Shown here one piece after another: positions 11,392 to 27,539 of a stretch of DNA of 45,766 nucleotides. Each line of letters opens with the position of its first letter. Position 1 is the stretch's first letter. The DNA is taken from positions 1 through 45,766 of the forward strand of contig CALMML010000389.1 in the NCBI GenBank assembly GCA_937868485.1, written 5' to 3'. A program made the translations under genes and the position numbers. Source of the DNA: an uncultured Myxococcales bacterium. Its GTDB lineage: Bacteria > Myxococcota_A > Polyangia > Palsa-1104 > JAEUJZ01. The notes beneath the pieces were generated by a model that ran no database searches, had not been told where the DNA came from, and saw only the letters and a list, made by a program, of their open reading frames with translations.

Positions 11392-13695
11392 ATGGTGCAA
11401 AAGCCAGGCTCGAAACCGCTGCGTCGTCGGCTGGTGGTGCTGATCGGTCTTTGGGGCGCGTGTGCGGCGGAACCTTCGTCGGTTTTCGTCGCGCAGCCGG
11501 TTCGTCACGTGCTGGGCGATCAGTTTGTGCTGACGCTGCCGCAAGATGCGCGCTCGCTAGAACCGATGCCGCGTGAGTCGCTGCGACGACGAATTGCGCA
11601 GCTCGGGCTCCGGCTGGACTACGAGTTCAGTGATCGCGTCGGCTTGGCACATAGCGTGACGGTGTCGGGTGAGCTTTCGTCGGTCATGGCGCTGCGTGCG
11701 GAGCTTCCGGGACTGCGGGTGGCTCCGTCGGTGTTGCGTGGTCCCGTCGAGACAAGCTGCGGAAACAAGGTCTGTGATTCCGACGAAGCTGCGACGAGCG
11801 TGCGCGGCAGTACGTGCAGCTTGGACTGTGGCGCGCATCCGATTCGACCGCTGCGCGACGAGCTATCGAACAGCTGGCAGGTTGCTCACGTCGGTGCCGA
11901 TCGGGTCTGGCCCACCAGCCTTGGGCAAAACGTCCCGGTCTGCATCATCGACACGGGCTTTGACAGCGGTGCCGTCTCGACGCATCCAGACCGTCCCAGC
12001 GTGCTCTCGGCGGGCTATAACTTCGTCAGTCGCAGCGCGGACTATCGTGACATCGGCGACCATGGAACGCACGTCACCGGCATCGTGGCGGCTGCGCGAA
12101 ACGGCACAGGCAGCGTCGGAATTGCCCCCGAAGCGAGCATTCGGATCTATCAAGTGTTCCGTCTGAGAAACGGCATTCCCGTCGCCAGTGATGCGGATGT
12201 AATCGCTGCGCTTGATGCTGCCGTCGGTGATGGCTGTCGCGTGGTCAACATGAGCCTGGGCGGATCGAGCGATAGCGAAGCGGAGCACACGGCGATTCAG
12301 CGCGCGTATCAGTCAGGCATCTTGGTCGTCGCTGCGGCAGGAAATTCTGAGGATGCCGCGCGCGGTGCGATTGGAACCGCTGCGAGCAGCTTCCCTGGCG
12401 CTTATCCAGAGTCCTTTACCGTCGGTGCTGTCGATCGCTCAGACGCGCTGGCTTCGTTTTCCGGCACGGGTCCGTCGGTGTCGGTGGTGGCTCCGGGCGT
12501 TGACATCTATTCGTCAGTTCCCGTCGGAAAAGGCCAGCGTGAAGTGGTTGCCTCGTTTGTGACAGACCGTGGATCCATCGCGCTGGATGTGGTCTTGCCC
12601 GACGGAAGCGCTGGCACTTCGTTTTCGCAGACGCCGGTGACAAGCTGTGGATTCGGCAGCCCAAGCGAGGTGCAAGCGTGTCAGCCCGTCGGACAGGTTG
12701 CGCTGATCGCGCGGGGACCGAGTGCGCCGGGACAGACCGCCATCCCATTTTACGACAAAATTCGCAGCGCCAGACAGGCCGGAGCCGTCGGTGTGCTGCT
12801 CTACAACCATCGCTTTGGCGATCCGCAGACCGCTGGAGCCATCGCAGAGAGCATCTCACTGGGCGGTGGCCATCCGGTTCCGGTGCTGTCGCTGGCTGCG
12901 GGCGACGGAGAAGCGCTGGTGAATCGCGTCGAGCAAGGCACGCTGTCGGTGTCTGCTCAGGTGTCGCCGAGCGATTATGCAGTTCTGGAAGGAACCAGCA
13001 TGGCCGCTCCCGTTGTCTCGGGTGTGGCTGCGCTGCTCTGGTCGGCTTATCCGTCGCTGAGCCATGTCGCACTGCGTCAACTTCTGTCGGAAAGCGCGGT
13101 GGACTTGGGCGCTCCGGGTCGCGACGACTTCTATGGCTCGGGGCGGATTGACGCGGGCCGTGCGCTTTTACAAGCCAGTCCGCGTGGACGCTGCGGCGAT
13201 GGCATTCGTGATCGACAAAGCGAGATCTGCGATGGAAGCAGCACCGATGGAAGCACCTGCGATGATCTCGGCTACGACGGAGTGCTTGGCGGTCAGCCTG
13301 GCTGTAACGTCGGCTGCACCGGACTTGTGACGGGAACTTGCCAGTGCGTCGCGGGACGAACCCCGTTTGAAAGCCAGCTCAGCGTCGATGAAGACTTCCA
13401 AGTCAGCGGCGGACTAAAGGGCACTCGCTTTCGCTATCGCATCGTCTTGCAAGGACAGCCCGCGCAAGGCGTTCGCGTCCAGGTTCGAATAGCTCGCGAC
13501 GGAAAACCGCTCATCTTGTACGTCACCGAGCCAAGCGACAGCAGCGGCATCGTCACCGACTTCATCCCCTACGACGGCACCGGACTTGCTGCCGGCACCT
13601 ACCAAGTCATCCCGCTGCTCACCAAGGGCGACGAGCGCTGCCGCGACAACCAGCCCGTCCGTCCCGCTGAAGTCAGCATCAAGATCCGCAGCTAG
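11392..13695 (+). CDS. Secreted subtilisin-like (S8) serine protease with PA insert
   Basis: A 767-residue exported protease. A basic, hydrophobic N-terminus ends in GLWGAC (19-24), a weak lipobox, so a lipoprotein is possible. Residues about 35-115 resemble an I9-type propeptide. A Cys-rich CGNKVCDSDE...CSLDCG segment (123-147) precedes the S8 domain. The triad is Asp187 (IDTGF), His224 (GDHGTHVTG) and Ser536 (GTSMAAP), with oxyanion Asn318 (AAAGNS). A protease-associated (PA) domain is inserted between Asn and Ser (about 385-525, with a Cys pair at 419/430). The C-terminus has a second Cys-rich motif (CGDGIRD...) and a beta-sandwich-like tail. Such Cys-rich repeats are common in myxobacterial surface proteins. 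It probably degrades extracellular protein. All catalytic residues are present. Confidence 0.93.
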   Translation: MVQKPGSKPLRRRLVVLIGLWGACAAEPSSVFVAQPVRHVLGDQFVLTLPQDARSLEPMPRESLRRRIAQLGLRLDYEFSDRVGLAHSVTVSGELSSVMALRAELPGLRVAPSVLRGPVETSCGNKVCDSDEAATSVRGSTCSLDCGAHPIRPLRDELSNSWQVAHVGADRVWPTSLGQNVPVCIIDTGFDSGAVSTHPDRPSVLSAGYNFVSRSADYRDIGDHGTHVTGIVAAARNGTGSVGIAPEASIRIYQVFRLRNGIPVASDADVIAALDAAVGDGCRVVNMSLGGSSDSEAEHTAIQRAYQSGILVVAAAGNSEDAARGAIGTAASSFPGAYPESFTVGAVDRSDALASFSGTGPSVSVVAPGVDIYSSVPVGKGQREVVASFVTDRGSIALDVVLPDGSAGTSFSQTPVTSCGFGSPSEVQACQPVGQVALIARGPSAPGQTAIPFYDKIRSARQAGAVGVLLYNHRFGDPQTAGAIAESISLGGGHPVPVLSLAAGDGEALVNRVEQGTLSVSAQVSPSDYAVLEGTSMAAPVVSGVAALLWSAYPSLSHVALRQLLSESAVDLGAPGRDDFYGSGRIDAGRALLQASPRGRCGDGIRDRQSEICDGSSTDGSTCDDLGYDGVLGGQPGCNVGCTGLVTGTCQCVAGRTPFESQLSVDEDFQVSGGLKGTRFRYRIVLQGQPAQGVRVQVRIARDGKPLILYVTEPSDSSGIVTDFIPYDGTGLAAGTYQVIPLLTKGDERCRDNQPVRPAEVSIKIRS

Positions 13696-13933
13696 GCCTG
13701 TTTCTTCGCCGCTTGGACACCGATTTTTGGCGGCTCGTGCATGGCGACTGCCGGTTGGTGGTTCCGATCCGCCTGTTGGTCGGAAACGGCTGGGCGCAGC
13801 GACGTCGGCGTCTACCTTAGTTTTATCAGCAGCCTGGCTCTCGGAATCGATGAAAACCGCGACGGGCTTTCTGGTCTACACGAATACAGAAGTGGCACTT
13901 GGTGTGCGGACGCCGCCGCAAAAAGGAGAGACT

Positions 13934-14803
13934 ATGAAGGGCTTATCTCGACGCAACGTGCTTGGTGCTTTTGGTGGATTCGGTGCGCTGATGCTGTTTG
14001 GCTGCGACACGTCGTCCAGCGGTGGCAGCGGTGCGGATGGCGGTGGAACCTCGTCGGGCGGCGATGGTGGGCTCAGCAGCGATGGCGGCATCTTGTCCAG
14101 TGGCTTCGCCGTCGGTTCGGGCGCGTTTTTGACCGGCAAAGACTACGGCAACCCGTTCAGCAGCGGCATCGGATCGAGCTGCGTGGCGTTCGGTGCGGCG
14201 ACCAAGGGTCCGTGTCACTCGAACACCTATCTGCGCAAGGATCTGTCCGACGGTCTGGTGGGTCTGCCGACGCGATTTGAGCTGATGATCGTCGACACCT
14301 CGTGCAAGCCGGTGCCTAACGCGATTGTCGAAATTTGGTACGCATCGCCGGCGGGAACCTATTCAAAGGCGGCACAGGCGATTGACTCGGGCACGGGCTA
14401 TAGCGGATCGCTGTCGGACCTGAACACGTCGTTTTGCACGGGCAACGATGCAGCGGCGCTGGCTTCGAACTGGCTGCGTGGCTTTCAGATGACGGGCACG
14501 GATGGACGGACGACGATCGACGGCATTTTCCCAGGCTGGTATGCCGGTCGTACGACGCACATTCACTTCATCATCACGGCGAACGGCAAGACCTATGTGA
14601 CGTCGCAGCTGCTGTTTGATGAGTCGCTCACGTCGGAGGTCTACACCAAGCACAGCTCGTACAGCTACCGAGGCAACAAGGACACGAGCAACGCGACCGA
14701 CAACATCGTGCGCGGCGGACTGTCGCTCAGCTCTTCGGTGATGTCGTTCGCTCAGCAGAGCGACGGGGCCATCGTGACGTGGAAGAGCATCACCATCGCG
14801 TAG
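13934..14803 (+). CDS. Tat-exported lipoprotein, intradiol ring-cleavage dioxygenase family
   Basis: A 289-residue protein. The start is set by AAGGAGA 5 bases before ATG 13934. The N-terminus has a twin-arginine motif, SRRNVLG (5-11), and a lipobox, LFGC24, so the folded, cofactor-loaded protein should be Tat-exported and lipid-anchored, followed by a Gly/Ser-rich linker (28-56). Residues about 85-289 form the intradiol dioxygenase-like beta-sandwich. FPGWYAGRTTHIHF (199-212) supplies Tyr203, His209 and His211 as Fe(III) ligands and Arg206; G-x-Y-S (141-144) probably supplies the other Tyr. Cytosolic relatives open catechol or protocatechuate rings. The substrate of extracytoplasmic members is not established; lignin-like or humic aromatics are a guess. 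It follows the subtilase after 238 bp with no obvious terminator. Confidence 0.87.
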   Translation: MKGLSRRNVLGAFGGFGALMLFGCDTSSSGGSGADGGGTSSGGDGGLSSDGGILSSGFAVGSGAFLTGKDYGNPFSSGIGSSCVAFGAATKGPCHSNTYLRKDLSDGLVGLPTRFELMIVDTSCKPVPNAIVEIWYASPAGTYSKAAQAIDSGTGYSGSLSDLNTSFCTGNDAAALASNWLRGFQMTGTDGRTTIDGIFPGWYAGRTTHIHFIITANGKTYVTSQLLFDESLTSEVYTKHSSYSYRGNKDTSNATDNIVRGGLSLSSSVMSFAQQSDGAIVTWKSITIA

Positions 14804-18197: not shown

Positions 18198-19061
18198 ATG
18201 CCGACCGTGGACTTTGACTTCCAGCGCTACGTGCAGCGCAAAAAGGGCGCTCGTGCCGCCCAGGTTCGCGAGGGAGCGGCCTATGCCTATCCCGGAGATG
18301 TTCGCCTGCTTCGGACGCTCGATCGTCTGCGTCCCGTCGAGCTGGCTCTACTTGAAGCGGGTCGTCTGTGGCAGAGCGTGGCGCGTGCCGAGCTGCTCGG
18401 TCCGGCGGTGCGCGCGGTGGCTCCGCGTTATGCGCAGGTTGCGGCGGCGGCCAAGCGCTGCGCTGAGATCCTGCACATCGACGTTCCTGTGATCTACATC
18501 GCGCCGCGTCCGTCGGGCGTGCTGACGCTGGGAACCGAAGCTGAGACGTACATTGTGCTCAGCCAAGGACTGCTCGATAGCTTAAGTCCCGACGAGCTGC
18601 TCGACGTGATAGGCCGGGAGTGTGGTCGCATTCAGAACGGTCACGTTCCGTTTCGGACCGCGCTGCACTATCTGACGCACAACGCGAGCACGATGACGCG
18701 CTGGGCGGTTCGTCCGGCGACGCTGACGCTGCTGGCCTGGGCTCGTCGGGCCGACATCACCGCCGATCGCGCGGGCGTGCTCTGTGCGCGCAGCGTCGAT
18801 GTATCGCTGATTGCGATGCAGAAGGCCTTTCCTGAAGACGACAGTCGCGAGCTGGCTCGTCGCTATCGTGCGATTCAGCGCTTTTCCGGCAGCCTGTATT
18901 ACAAGACGGTGGTCGGTCAGGATGCCGACGACGGAGAAAGCACAGAAGACTGTGACGCGGCGGTGGCACAGATTCTAGACGACAAAGACGTTCCGCCTCC
19001 GGTGCCCAAAGGTAGCGGCGGTGCAGCAACCAGCACGACCGGCGAGGGCGAAGGACGATGA
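18198..19061 (+). CDS. M48-like protein lacking zinc ligands (pseudo-peptidase)
   Basis: A 287-residue protein with the layout of an M48 (HtpX/Oma1-like) metallopeptidase core but no metal site. Where M48 enzymes have HExxH, this has Arg140-Glu141-Cys-Gly-Arg144 inside DVIGRECGRIQNGHV, checked codon by codon (CGG GAG TGT GGT CGC). The third ligand, Glu of the ExxAD motif, is Asp186 in ADITADRAG. The fold-defining residues around these sites are preserved, so both zinc His residues were replaced without loss of the frame. Peptidase activity is very unlikely; a binding or regulatory role is more plausible. There is no clear membrane helix. The acidic, Gly/Pro-rich tail (245-287) is probably disordered. 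The stop overlaps the GTPase start as ATGA, so the two are translationally coupled. Confidence 0.78.
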   Translation: MPTVDFDFQRYVQRKKGARAAQVREGAAYAYPGDVRLLRTLDRLRPVELALLEAGRLWQSVARAELLGPAVRAVAPRYAQVAAAAKRCAEILHIDVPVIYIAPRPSGVLTLGTEAETYIVLSQGLLDSLSPDELLDVIGRECGRIQNGHVPFRTALHYLTHNASTMTRWAVRPATLTLLAWARRADITADRAGVLCARSVDVSLIAMQKAFPEDDSRELARRYRAIQRFSGSLYYKTVVGQDADDGESTEDCDAAVAQILDDKDVPPPVPKGSGGAATSTTGEGEGR

Positions 19062-20848
19062 GCGTACTTAGCAGACAGCATCGCGAGCTCAAAGACGGGC
19101 TTCTGAGCGCGCTTCGAGATGTCGCGCGACTGGCCGACGACACCGGCATGCAGACGCTGACGTCAGAGCTTCTACGCGAGCGGATTCCCAAGCTGGAAGA
19201 AGAGCGCTTTGTGCTGGTGGTCCTCGGTGAGTTCAATCACGGCAAGTCGACGTTTGTGAACGCGCTGCTCGGGTCCAGCGTGCTGCCTGCGGGCATCACA
19301 CCGACGACAGCGACGATCAATCACTTGGTGTATGCGGACAAGCCGTGTGCCAAAGCAGTGCTCGTCGATGAAACCCAGCGCGTCGTCGATCCCAAGTCGC
19401 TGGCCGAGTGGGTGACGATCGAGAGCACCAAGGCCGAAAAGGTGCGCTACGTCGAGGTCGGCTGGCCAGCGGAGATCCTGCGCGATCGAGTGACGCTCGT
19501 CGATACGCCCGGTGTGAACGACATCAACGAAGCCCGCGCCGAGATCACCTACAATTACATTCCGCGTGCCGACGCTGTGCTGTTTCTGCTCGATAGCTCG
19601 CAGGTTCTAAAGCAGTCGGAGCGATCGTTTTTGGAACAGCGGATTTTGCGACGCAGCCGCGACAAGCTGCTGTTTGTGATTGGCAAGGCGGATCTGCTGT
19701 CTCCCGAAGAGCGTGCCGAGGCGACGCGCTACGTGCGCGACAACTTGCAGCCGCTGCTCGGTGCGGAGCCGATGATCTTTCCGGTGTCGGCGCGGCTCCA
19801 GCTGGCGGGACGCAGCGCAGAGAGCGGAATTCCCGAGCTCAAGAGCTACCTTCAGCGCTATCTATCCGACGAGCGTGGTCGGGTTTTGCTTGACAATGCG
19901 TCGTCGGATGGTCAGCGGCTGTGCGCGTATCTGCGACAGAACCTGGGAATCAAGGCGCGCTCACTCGGGCTGACGCTGGAAGAGCTGGAAGCGCGGATTG
20001 CGCGCGTTCAAAAAGAGCTGTCGGGCAAGCAGCAGACGATGCGTCAGCTTCAGGCGCGGATCGTCGCAGAGTCCGATGCCATCAAGGCGCGGATTCGGCT
20101 CGATCTGGAAGAGTTTGTGGCCGCGTTTCAGGCCGCTCTCCCGAGTGAGATTGACAAAGCCAGCGCCGACGACGTGCGCAAGTACTTGCAGCTGTTTTTG
20201 CAAGACACGTTCAAGCAGTGGGCCGAGCAAGAAGGCGATCGCGTCGCGTCAGAGCTGGAGCGTCTGGCCGAGCAGATCATCCAGATCACCAACGAAAACG
20301 TCCAGCAGGCGATGGCGACGCTGGCGGCAGAGCTGGGACCGGCGGATACGCGCGTGGACTTGCAGGTCGACACGCTCAAGTACGACGTGGGAATCTTTGC
20401 GCTCGGTGCGCTCGGAACTGGCATCTTCCTGTTCGTGAACACCTTCGTCGGTGGCATGCTGACGCTGGCTGCGCCGATCATCGCGGTGCTGATTCACAGT
20501 CGAATGGCCGACGAGATCAAGCGTCAAGCCAAGCTCCAAGCTGCGCAGGCGGTTCAGACGGCGGCGCAGGCGATCTTGCCGCGCTTTCAGCAGATCGTGG
20601 ACGACTTTGCGGCGCGACTGGCTGACTTTGTGACGGCGGCGGGTCAAGCGCTGCATCGCGGGATCTCAGAGATGCTGGATCGCGCACTGGCCGAGCGAAA
20701 AGCGACGGGGCTCGACGTGGCAGTGCGGCAGCGCGAGATTGACGTGCAGGTCGAAGAGCTTCGCAAGCTGGAGGCGCGTCTCGACGAGATTCGTCAGACC
20801 TTGTGGGCTCCGAGTGTGGATGGAGAAACCGAAGGATTTCCTTCGTAG
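19058..20848 (+). CDS. Bacterial dynamin-like GTPase
   Basis: A 596-residue large GTPase of the dynamin/Fzo-like superfamily, which bind and remodel membranes. The G1 loop is GEFNHGKST (57-65); G2 is TPTTATIN (81-88); G3 is DTPG (149-152); G4 reads GKAD (209-212), with Gly in place of the usual Asn of NKxD. Helical stalk segments (about 295-440) with strong coiled-coil character follow. A hydrophobic hairpin at 444-479 (VGIFALGALGTGIFLFVN, then MLTLAAPIIAVLI) is the likely membrane paddle. A C-terminal coiled coil (about 480-585) returns to the neck. It overlaps the pseudo-M48 gene by 4 bp and is followed 10 bp later by glyoxalase II. Its role may be membrane repair, fusion or stress; the sequence does not choose. 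Confidence 0.9.
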   Translation: MSVLSRQHRELKDGLLSALRDVARLADDTGMQTLTSELLRERIPKLEEERFVLVVLGEFNHGKSTFVNALLGSSVLPAGITPTTATINHLVYADKPCAKAVLVDETQRVVDPKSLAEWVTIESTKAEKVRYVEVGWPAEILRDRVTLVDTPGVNDINEARAEITYNYIPRADAVLFLLDSSQVLKQSERSFLEQRILRRSRDKLLFVIGKADLLSPEERAEATRYVRDNLQPLLGAEPMIFPVSARLQLAGRSAESGIPELKSYLQRYLSDERGRVLLDNASSDGQRLCAYLRQNLGIKARSLGLTLEELEARIARVQKELSGKQQTMRQLQARIVAESDAIKARIRLDLEEFVAAFQAALPSEIDKASADDVRKYLQLFLQDTFKQWAEQEGDRVASELERLAEQIIQITNENVQQAMATLAAELGPADTRVDLQVDTLKYDVGIFALGALGTGIFLFVNTFVGGMLTLAAPIIAVLIHSRMADEIKRQAKLQAAQAVQTAAQAILPRFQQIVDDFAARLADFVTAAGQALHRGISEMLDRALAERKATGLDVAVRQREIDVQVEELRKLEARLDEIRQTLWAPSVDGETEGFPS

Positions 20849-24805: not shown

Positions 24806-24992
24806 GGCTGCTGGGTTCCTCGCCTACGAAGAGTTCGCGCCTTCCATACTGCGCCCGCTTGCAGCCGAAAAGTTTTTTATGCGTCGTTCCCTCTGGGCTG
24901 CTGTGCGTGCAGTGACTGCCGATACCGATTGTTCCACGGACTGATTCGCCCAGGGCTTGGGCCGCGTGGCCGAGTTGGCTACAGTAGCCGCC

Positions 24993-27539
24993 ATGCCTGC
25001 CCGAGGTCGTAAAGCCGCTTCTTCGTCCACATCTCCCACGGAGCCGCCTGCCCCTACTGCGGCTGACGTTCCGTCGGTGATATCGACAAGCGACACGACA
25101 CCGAACCCGGGCTCCGATACAGAGCCAGCCCCGCGCGGTCGTCGCAAGCAAGTGCCGGTTCTGACCGAAGACGATCTGACGATTCGACCCTCGATTGCAG
25201 AGCTGCTCGACAAGCTACCGACCGATCCCGGCGTCTACCTGATGAAGGACAAGCGCGGGCGCATCATCTACGTCGGCAAAGCCAAAAACCTCAGAAGCCG
25301 CGTTCGCAACTACTTCCAGCGCTCCGGCGACAACCGACCGTTTGTGAAGCTGCTCGATCGGATCTTGGCCGACATCGAGACGGTCATCACCAGCAGCGAA
25401 AAAGAAGCGCTCCTGCTTGAAAACAACCTGATCAAGCAGCACAAGCCGCGCTTTAACGTCCGTCTCGTCGATGACAAGAACTACCTGGTGCTGCGGCTCG
25501 ATCCCAAGGCGCGCTATCCCCGTCTGGAAGTGACCCGCAAGATTCGCGAAGACGGCGCACGCTATTTCGGTCCGTATCACTCCGCGCGAGCCTGTCGTCA
25601 GACGCTGGAGGTGATCGGTCGGCACTTTCGGCTGCGCACCTGCACCGATCAAGTGATGAACGGTCGTCGCAGGCCGTGTCTGGAATATCAGATCAAGCGC
25701 TGTGATGCGCCGTGTGTGCTGCCGGTGCCTCCGTCGCAGTACGCCGAGCAGGTTCGTGACGTTGCGCTGTTTTTGGAACACAAGTCGAGCGAGCTGCTCG
25801 ATCGGCTGCGCAGCCGCATGATGTCGGCGTCCGATAGCCTGGAGTTTGAGACGGCAGCGGCGCTGCGTGATCAGCTCAAAGCGATCGAAATCACGCTGGA
25901 ACGTCAGCACGCCGTGGCGACCCAGTTTGTCGATCAAGATGTGATCGGCTACTACCGCGAAGGCGACGTGCTGGAGATCGCGGTGCTGCTCGTTCGCCAA
26001 GGAAAGCTCGTCGGTCGGCGGACGTTTCGCTGCACCGGACAAGAGTTTCCCGACGAAGAGTCGATCTCGTCGTTTGTCAGCCAGTATTACGATCGTCCCG
26101 GCATCGAGATTCCCGACGAGGTGCTCTTGCCGCTGGCGATTGAAGATCAGCAGGCCAAGTCCGACTGGCTGCGCGAGCGCACCGAGGAGCTGTTTGGCCG
26201 CGCGCGCAAGGTCGAGGTGCAAGCGCCAAAGCGTGGGCCTCGGCAAAAGCTCGTCGAGCTGGCCAGCAAGAACGCGGCGGCGGCCTATGCGTCGCGACGG
26301 AATCGCACCAAAGACACCGAAGCGGCGCTCGGTAAGCTTCAGCGGCGGCTCGGGCTCAAGAAGCTGCCGATGCGCATCGAGTGCTTCGACATCTCGCACC
26401 TGCAAGGCACCGATACCGTGGCCTCTCGCGTGGTGTTTCTCGATGGAGAGCCCGCCAAACACCTGTATCGGACCTTCAAGGTTCGCTCGGTGGAAAACGA
26501 CGACTTTGCCGCGATGTATGAGGTCCTGTCGCGGCGCTTCCGACGCGCGCTCGGCAAGACAACAGGGCAGGGCGGCGGTGGCGAAGACGTCGGCTTTTCG
26601 TCCGCCAACGTGGCACGGCGACGTTCCGAAGCGCTGCTGCCGGTTGCGATCCGCGCTCCTTCTGCCGAAGCCCCCGCCGAAGTCGTCGATGTTCCTGAGT
26701 GGAGCGATGCCGAGCCCGATGATGTCGAAGCCGCCGATGCCCAGGCCGAAGCCGCGCTTGGGGACTTGGCCCTGATCGATGGCGACGAAGCGTCCGATCC
26801 CAAGAGCGAAGATCCGTGGAGCTTGCCCGACCTGCTGGTCATCGATGGTGGCAAAGGACAGCTGGCAACGGCGCTCGCGGCGCTCAAAGACATTGGCATC
26901 AACTGGGCGACGGAGCTGGATGTCATCGGCCTGGCCAAAGAGCGCGAAGACGTACGCGGCGATCGCAAGCCGGATCGCGTGTTTCTGCCTCGGACCAAAG
27001 ATCCGATTCGGCTGCGCGACAACACCGCAGAGCTGTTTGTGCTGTCACGGATTCGCGACGAAGCGCACCGCTTTGCCGTCAGCTTTCACCAGAAGCTGCG
27101 GGAAAAGCGCACGATCCGATCGCAGCTCCAAGAGATTCCAGGCATCGGGCCTCGGCGTCAGCAGGCGCTGCTGCGGGCGCTCGGCAGTGTTCGGCGGATT
27201 CGGGTGGCCAGTCGCCAAGAGCTGCTGGCGGTTTCCGGCATGACCGAAGCGGCGGCGGATGCGGTGCTGCGCTTCTTTGTCGATGCGCGCGGCGGCGAGC
27301 CAGCGCCCCTGTCAGTCGAGAATCAGCCAATGACCCGACCGATCGCCACGCCACGCCCGCCCAGCGCGCCGCCGCCTGGGAAGGACGCGGACAGTCCCGC
27401 TGAAGACGTGGTGGAACACGCAGCCGCCGCAGAGCTAACCGCCCTGGCTGTCGACGAAAGCGAAGACGATCTGGCGCGCTCGGTGGCGGAGCTGTTGACC
27501 GATGAAGCCGCAGCGGCTCGGTCCGATTCGGGAAGCTAG
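24993..27539 (+). CDS. uvrC: UvrABC system protein C, with extra segments
   Basis: The nuclease subunit of nucleotide excision repair; it makes both incisions around a lesion held by UvrB. From ATG 24993 it has 848 residues, against about 600 usually. A disordered N-terminal extension of about 65 residues precedes the GIY-YIG domain (GVYLMKDKRGRIIYVGKAKNL). A Cys-containing region, the UvrB-binding UVR motif (about 280-315), the RNase H-like endonuclease (IECFDISH; LLVIDGGKGQL) and a helix-hairpin-helix pair (IPGIGPRRQQALL) follow. An insert of about 85 acidic, Ala/Asp/Glu-rich residues interrupts the endonuclease between FRRALGK and DLLVIDGG. A disordered acidic tail of about 80 residues ends it. 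A TTG at 24957 is an alternative start. Neither start has a good ribosome site. Confidence 0.93.
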   Translation: MPARGRKAASSSTSPTEPPAPTAADVPSVISTSDTTPNPGSDTEPAPRGRRKQVPVLTEDDLTIRPSIAELLDKLPTDPGVYLMKDKRGRIIYVGKAKNLRSRVRNYFQRSGDNRPFVKLLDRILADIETVITSSEKEALLLENNLIKQHKPRFNVRLVDDKNYLVLRLDPKARYPRLEVTRKIREDGARYFGPYHSARACRQTLEVIGRHFRLRTCTDQVMNGRRRPCLEYQIKRCDAPCVLPVPPSQYAEQVRDVALFLEHKSSELLDRLRSRMMSASDSLEFETAAALRDQLKAIEITLERQHAVATQFVDQDVIGYYREGDVLEIAVLLVRQGKLVGRRTFRCTGQEFPDEESISSFVSQYYDRPGIEIPDEVLLPLAIEDQQAKSDWLRERTEELFGRARKVEVQAPKRGPRQKLVELASKNAAAAYASRRNRTKDTEAALGKLQRRLGLKKLPMRIECFDISHLQGTDTVASRVVFLDGEPAKHLYRTFKVRSVENDDFAAMYEVLSRRFRRALGKTTGQGGGGEDVGFSSANVARRRSEALLPVAIRAPSAEAPAEVVDVPEWSDAEPDDVEAADAQAEAALGDLALIDGDEASDPKSEDPWSLPDLLVIDGGKGQLATALAALKDIGINWATELDVIGLAKEREDVRGDRKPDRVFLPRTKDPIRLRDNTAELFVLSRIRDEAHRFAVSFHQKLREKRTIRSQLQEIPGIGPRRQQALLRALGSVRRIRVASRQELLAVSGMTEAAADAVLRFFVDARGGEPAPLSVENQPMTRPIATPRPPSAPPPGKDADSPAEDVVEHAAAAELTALAVDESEDDLARSVAELLTDEAAAARSDSGS

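Follow-up and report, generated by a model that had tools for sequence, protein, structure and literature searches.

A repeatedly inactivated M48 metallopeptidase homologue encoded with a dynamin-like GTPase in Myxococcota is a probable binding regulator of a dynamin pair

Based on sequence comparison, phylogeny and structure prediction, we propose that the M48 homologue encoded in the window (the whole stretch of 45,766 nucleotides from an uncultured Myxococcales bacterium that was analysed) is catalytically dead family-wide and is probably kept as a binding regulator of a pair of dynamins, DLP1 and DLP2. More tentatively, the gene may belong to a dedicated myxobacterial M48-dynamin membrane-remodelling module in which a protease has become, on several independent occasions, a regulator that acts purely by binding, a soluble counterpart of the mitochondrial protease-dynamin pairing; this wider reading is possible, and we hold it with less conviction. 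The features of the M48-fold gene and of its downstream neighbour are as follows.

18198..19061, plus strand: M48-fold pseudoprotease gene, 287 aa, ATG start (ORF, Pfam, model, hydropathy)
18219..18398, plus strand: N-terminal helical block, residues 8-67 (FQRYV...AAYAYPGDVRLLRTLDRLRPV...LW), candidate partner-binding surface
18615..18629, plus strand: degenerate HExxH, CGG GAG TGT GGT CGC, read as R140 E C G R144
18753..18755, plus strand: Asp186 (GAC) in place of the third zinc ligand Glu, inside ADITADR
18807..18863, plus strand: shortened segment, where intact orthologues are ~30 residues longer and end in the M48 HPxLxxR
19058..19061, plus strand: 4-bp ATGA overlap of M48 stop and GTPase start, translational coupling
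19058..20848, plus strand: DLP1, BDLP/mitofusin-like dynamin GTPase, 596 aa (Dynamin_N E=6.2e-31)
19226..19249, plus strand: DLP1 P-loop GEFNHGKS, intact
20393..20497, plus strand: hydrophobic region of DLP1 (residues ~446-480) that may form a membrane-inserting paddle

Elsewhere in the window, the RNase H endonuclease domain of UvrC (24957-27539) spans 247 residues against a 159-position model, with an insert of ~90 residues. A subtilase (Peptidase_S8; 11392-13695) carries an inserted PA domain and Cys-rich stretches, and an intradiol dioxygenase-like protein (13586-14803; Dioxygenase_C E=2.5e-10) has its likely start within the ORF at MKGLSRRNVLGAFGGFG, resembling a twin-arginine signal.

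The M48-fold protein, whose sequence includes ...LLDVIGRECGRIQNGHVPF... and ...RRADITADRAGVL..., matches Peptidase_M48 (Pfam PF01435) (E=4.4e-8; 33.6 bits, gathering score 20.3). An AlphaFold2 model built from 74 sequences, the window protein and its relatives, has a mean pLDDT of 89.4. Structural matches (VIA-align) were returned for BepA (6ait, Z 9.5, 162 residues, 4.5 A), Ste24p (4il3, Z 8.6), 3c37 (Z 8.4) and HtpX (3cqb, Z 8.0); the Z values are all moderate, and BlaR1, which is a zinc metalloprotease too, equals the M48 enzymes, so the fold assignment leans on sequence and structure jointly. By sequence the nearest solved relatives are HtpX 3cqb and Ste24p 4il3. HtpX models reach at most 17.3 bits on the protein against cut-offs of 245 or more. 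No transmembrane stretch was found in it (top 19-residue Kyte-Doolittle mean 1.13), and as judged from its sequence the protein is cytosolic.

A first, sequence-only reading of the gene had both zinc histidines replaced by arginine and the third ligand by aspartate. This is borne out: RECGR stands for H140R and H144R with E141 retained, and Asp186 occupies the third position. The same reading called the motif context well kept, which holds for G139, E141, G143, N147, H149, D190 and R191 and fails for HPxLxxR, gone together with ~30 residues. What the protein shares with active M48 enzymes is the fold; the HExxH His pair, the third-ligand Glu (ExxxD) and HPxLxxR are all absent. Might metal still be bound through E141, H149, D186 and D190, so that the protein is still a metalloenzyme? 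E141, H149 and D190 do persist, and in some inactive relatives (HQLGH, HALGH, HHCGH) all three zinc ligands are present, the catalytic Glu alone is lost and zinc may still be held. Against this stand the Arg in both His positions of the window protein, the loss of HPxLxxR and a Val at the third position in the orthologue L064, and we regard an enzyme of this kind as hardly credible. As L064 combines RECGR with that Val, a fixed salt bridge between Arg140/Arg144 and Asp186 in place of zinc is likewise unsupported as a rule.

The altered motif is old. RECGR was found in 5/5 genomes of the window's family with a readable motif (G000-G004, three genera, G000 being the window's own), and most distant orthologues keep HExxH. 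The sequence-only reading had held that orthologues with HExxH would point to a recent mutation or a sequencing error; the alignment is split, with RECGR conserved among close orthologues and HExxH among most distant ones, and indicates that the loss is ancient and shared by the whole family, not a recent mutation. Sequencing error and recent mutation are ruled out by the five independent assemblies together with the dN/dS values. Between species of the genus these are 0.041, 0.060 and 0.072 for the M48 gene, about as low as those of the neighbouring GTPase gene in the same species pairs (0.039, 0.038 and 0.043), and the M48 amino-acid sequence is under strong purifying selection. The gene in G011 is not a broken M48 gene; a contig end cuts it. 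The window protein thus combines a protease fold, missing catalytic residues and purifying selection on its gene, which marks it as a predicted pseudoprotease and not the product of a decayed gene, as had been claimed from the letters. Annotating it as an active M48 peptidase or as HtpX would be wrong, and the case is a warning to annotation pipelines that label such proteins M48 peptidases.

Is the gene retained for its own sake? The frame had been described as full length and coupled to its neighbour, and the ATGA overlap with the GTPase ORF agrees with this description. The overlap would also suit a relic that does little and is kept mainly by translational coupling to DLP1, as would the loss of catalysis in many lineages and the greater divergence of M48 within the window's order (about 50% identity among orthologues, against 62-64% for DLP1). 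However, the selection recorded by the dN/dS of 0.04-0.07 acts at the amino-acid level. In G003, moreover, the M48 (L063), DLP1 (L230) and DLP2 (L234) genes lie on separate contigs and the inactive M48 gene is still kept, which argues against retention by coupling alone. A relic is accordingly improbable. A further thought is that the protein serves as a decoy regulating an active M48 relative, in the manner of iRhoms. Pseudoenzymes can regulate active cousins (PMC11266112), and the sister genomes G001-G004 carry further M48 genes; yet the window's own genome, 99.7% complete, is without any other PF01435 gene, and we consider a decoy very improbable.

How often has catalysis been lost? Across Myxococcota, 141 distinct M48 orthologues were collected. 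The His-Glu-His-Glu set is present at the four positions in 114/141 and lost in 27/141, and the 27 inactive orthologues display 19 different combinations of ligand states, among them RECGR+D, RECGH, RQFGK+L, HQLGH, QQCGH+V, GAFGH+Q, RTLGY+D and SALGR+D. On a maximum-likelihood tree computed with the catalytic columns left out, the active or inactive state requires 8 changes, 5 of them forced by well-supported branches; with six degenerate sequences of the divergent family f8 added, the figures are still 8 changes and 6 forced. Support on this tree is uneven and several branches are long. The change counts by themselves are silent on direction; as HExxH is the defining motif of the M48 family, however, they are most sensibly read as losses. 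Forcing all inactive forms together costs 298 log-likelihood units in the best such tree, and a single ancestral loss is rejected by the AU test (p-AU 0.00025). The phylogeny shows at least six separate losses in the family, and probably eight or more. The genomes are mostly drafts, largely metagenome assemblies, and are related to one another, which bears on these branch counts and on the co-occurrence described below. In families f58 and f67 (L206-L211) 6/6 M48 orthologues are degenerate, and the gap to DLP1, where DLP1 was found, measures 301-963 bp.

Loss of the zinc site is accompanied by other changes. HPxLxxR, an element that occurs in Ste24p too, is present in 107/114 intact and 1/27 inactive orthologues. 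In intact orthologues it closes a stretch of 56-62 residues (window residues 204-229), which most members of the window's order have shortened to 20-26 residues. When HPxLxxR or segment-length loss was compared on independent pairs, the differing pairs agreed in direction and were too few for significance. Cys189 to Ala was considered as a co-varying second site and set aside: the raw counts are suggestive, with Cys in 109/114 intact and 11/27 inactive orthologues, but independent pairs lent no significant support. Conservation has shifted along the protein. Compared with intact members of the same large clade, the inactive order is more alike at N-terminal residues 6-29 (identity 0.82 versus 0.50) and less alike at residues 198-230 (0.46 versus 0.62), the clades being only roughly matched in diversity. 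A YAYxxDxRR-like core of the N-terminal block recurs in the divergent family f8. Taken together with the lost HPxLxxR, the conservation shift is suggestive of selection moving from catalysis to binding. Since the active site is complete in most M48 orthologues, catalysis matters in other lineages, and the inactive protein may differ in its job from the ancestral one.

The dynamin beside it appears intact. At the sequence level DLP1 matches BDLP 2j68 (E=2.5e-40), its fold matches BDLP 2j69 (E=2e-23), and its GTP-binding motifs are preserved. Its hydropathy over 19 residues peaks at 1.97 at residue 446, and G453, G465 and A476 are invariant. No DLP1 change clearly tracking the loss of M48 catalysis was found; a lost cleavage site in DLP1 was considered and dropped, as neither a length change nor a motif loss was seen.

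Across genomes the M48 protein is genetically tied to this dynamin-family GTPase. DLP1 lies downstream of M48 in 133/141 loci, 4/8 exceptions being at or near a contig end. Searches of 41 genomes in which no M48 orthologue had been found returned no close DLP1, the top score being 293 bits; in nine genomes with an M48 orthologue DLP1 scores 723-848 bits. In six of those 41 genomes, all of family f8, a divergent dynamin directly follows a divergent degenerate M48; the motifs read SGLGH, HGLGH, VGLGH, HALGH and GALAD, the third ligand is lost, and every copy examined is degenerate. The f8 loci (L239-L244) are operons of M48 and DLP1, with DLP2 as well. Adjacency or overlap of M48 and DLP1 is conserved in many families. 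In several relatives, G004 and G007 among them, M48, DLP1 and a TPR-dynamin of 945-967 aa, DLP2, are overlapping genes, and the two dynamins share an operon in G004, G007, G008, G010 and others; in the window's genus DLP2 is located elsewhere (G002:C17, G000:C9). The earlier suggestion that the M48 domain serves the GTPase is supported by this co-occurrence and operon structure. The recurrence of the loss, the second, TPR-bearing dynamin of the module and the disappearance of HPxLxxR go beyond what had been noticed from the single sequence.

DLP2 itself is a fusion of a TPR array with a dynamin GTPase, ~945-975 aa in length (L228:2561-5395, L227:5267-8167, L233:4386-7304). In many relatives it shares an operon with DLP1, and it is found in most Myxococcota searched, often unlinked. 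Its presence was rejected as the cause of catalysis loss, since DLP2 is widespread where M48 is intact. A phage-defence role was likewise discarded: M48 has no PADLOC match, and the matches of DLP1 and DLP2 to LeoA/LeoBC, with DLP2 also hitting a TPR model, reflect dynamin kinship only. A START-like DUF2505 gene (PF10698, E=1e-18, L225:3333-3872) lies upstream of M48, with a look-alike by sequence at L226:11500-12009; in the two families where it precedes M48 it is a possible lipid-binding member of the module.

Could the maintained pseudoenzyme have a partner other than the dynamins, its position beside them reflecting shared expression or membrane-stress physiology? The unlinked genes of G003, the DUF2505 gene ahead of M48 in two families and the lack of any DLP1 change that tracks the loss would fit such a partner. 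The near-strict coupling of M48 and DLP1 in presence and absence, which extends to the degenerate f8 proteins beside their divergent DLP1, and the adjacency or overlap conserved in many families speak against it, and we judge a non-dynamin partner unlikely, with more to be said for it than for a relic or a decoy.

What, then, would a dead M48 protein do for two dynamins? We favour a cytosolic binding partner that would control the assembly or membrane recruitment of DLP1 and DLP2 by scaffolding, recruiting or restraining them. Ancestrally the M48 protein would have been a functional protease belonging to the dynamin module. As catalysis was lost, the selected function would have become the binding surface of the M48 protein, most likely its N-terminal helices. 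In species with HExxH the M48 protein may also cut a substrate, and in the window's lineage the binding role alone would remain. The module would remodel or repair the cytoplasmic membrane, as is thought for other bacterial dynamin pairs. The partners of bacterial dynamins are poorly known, and a strictly co-occurring M48 protein offers a direct handle on the control of the GTPase. The recurrent losses of catalysis amount to a natural experiment in which the features that stay constant among dead copies should mark the binding surface. If the wider reading of a dedicated module is true, active and dead versions of one regulator can be compared in nature.

How does this arrangement relate to known systems? 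Our searches found no literature on bacterial M48-dynamin pairs or on M48 pseudoproteases, many subscription papers lying outside them, and a 2024 review of inactive metallopeptidases is silent on M48, HtpX and Ste24 (PMC11266112). Pseudoproteases are an established kind. The window protein has its fold in common with HtpX, Ste24 and BepA, but has neither zinc His ligands nor HPxLxxR nor transmembrane helices, and its N-terminal helical block is its own. Bacterial dynamins usually come as operon-encoded pairs, of which the Campylobacter one tethers membranes (PMC6104087). DLP1 matches the Campylobacter protein 5owv, and in the relatives where two dynamins are adjacent in an operon they recall Campylobacter DLP1/DLP2, LeoABC and DynA; here, in contrast, the TPR array of DLP2 is long and the first gene of the operon encodes an M48 protein. 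In mitochondria the dynamin OPA1 is cleaved by OMA1, a membrane protease with catalytic activity (PMC8027119, PMC10078952). The link of an M48 protein to a GTPase from the membrane-fusion branch of the dynamin family resembles that pairing by analogy only: by sequence the window protein is soluble and without a catalytic site, unlike OMA1, and DLP1 is closer to BDLP and mitofusin than to OPA1. Like iRhoms and other inactive metallopeptidase homologues, the M48 protein keeps a protease fold without catalysis and likely acts by binding, whereas in this case a single orthologous gene of an operon has lost catalysis many times over.
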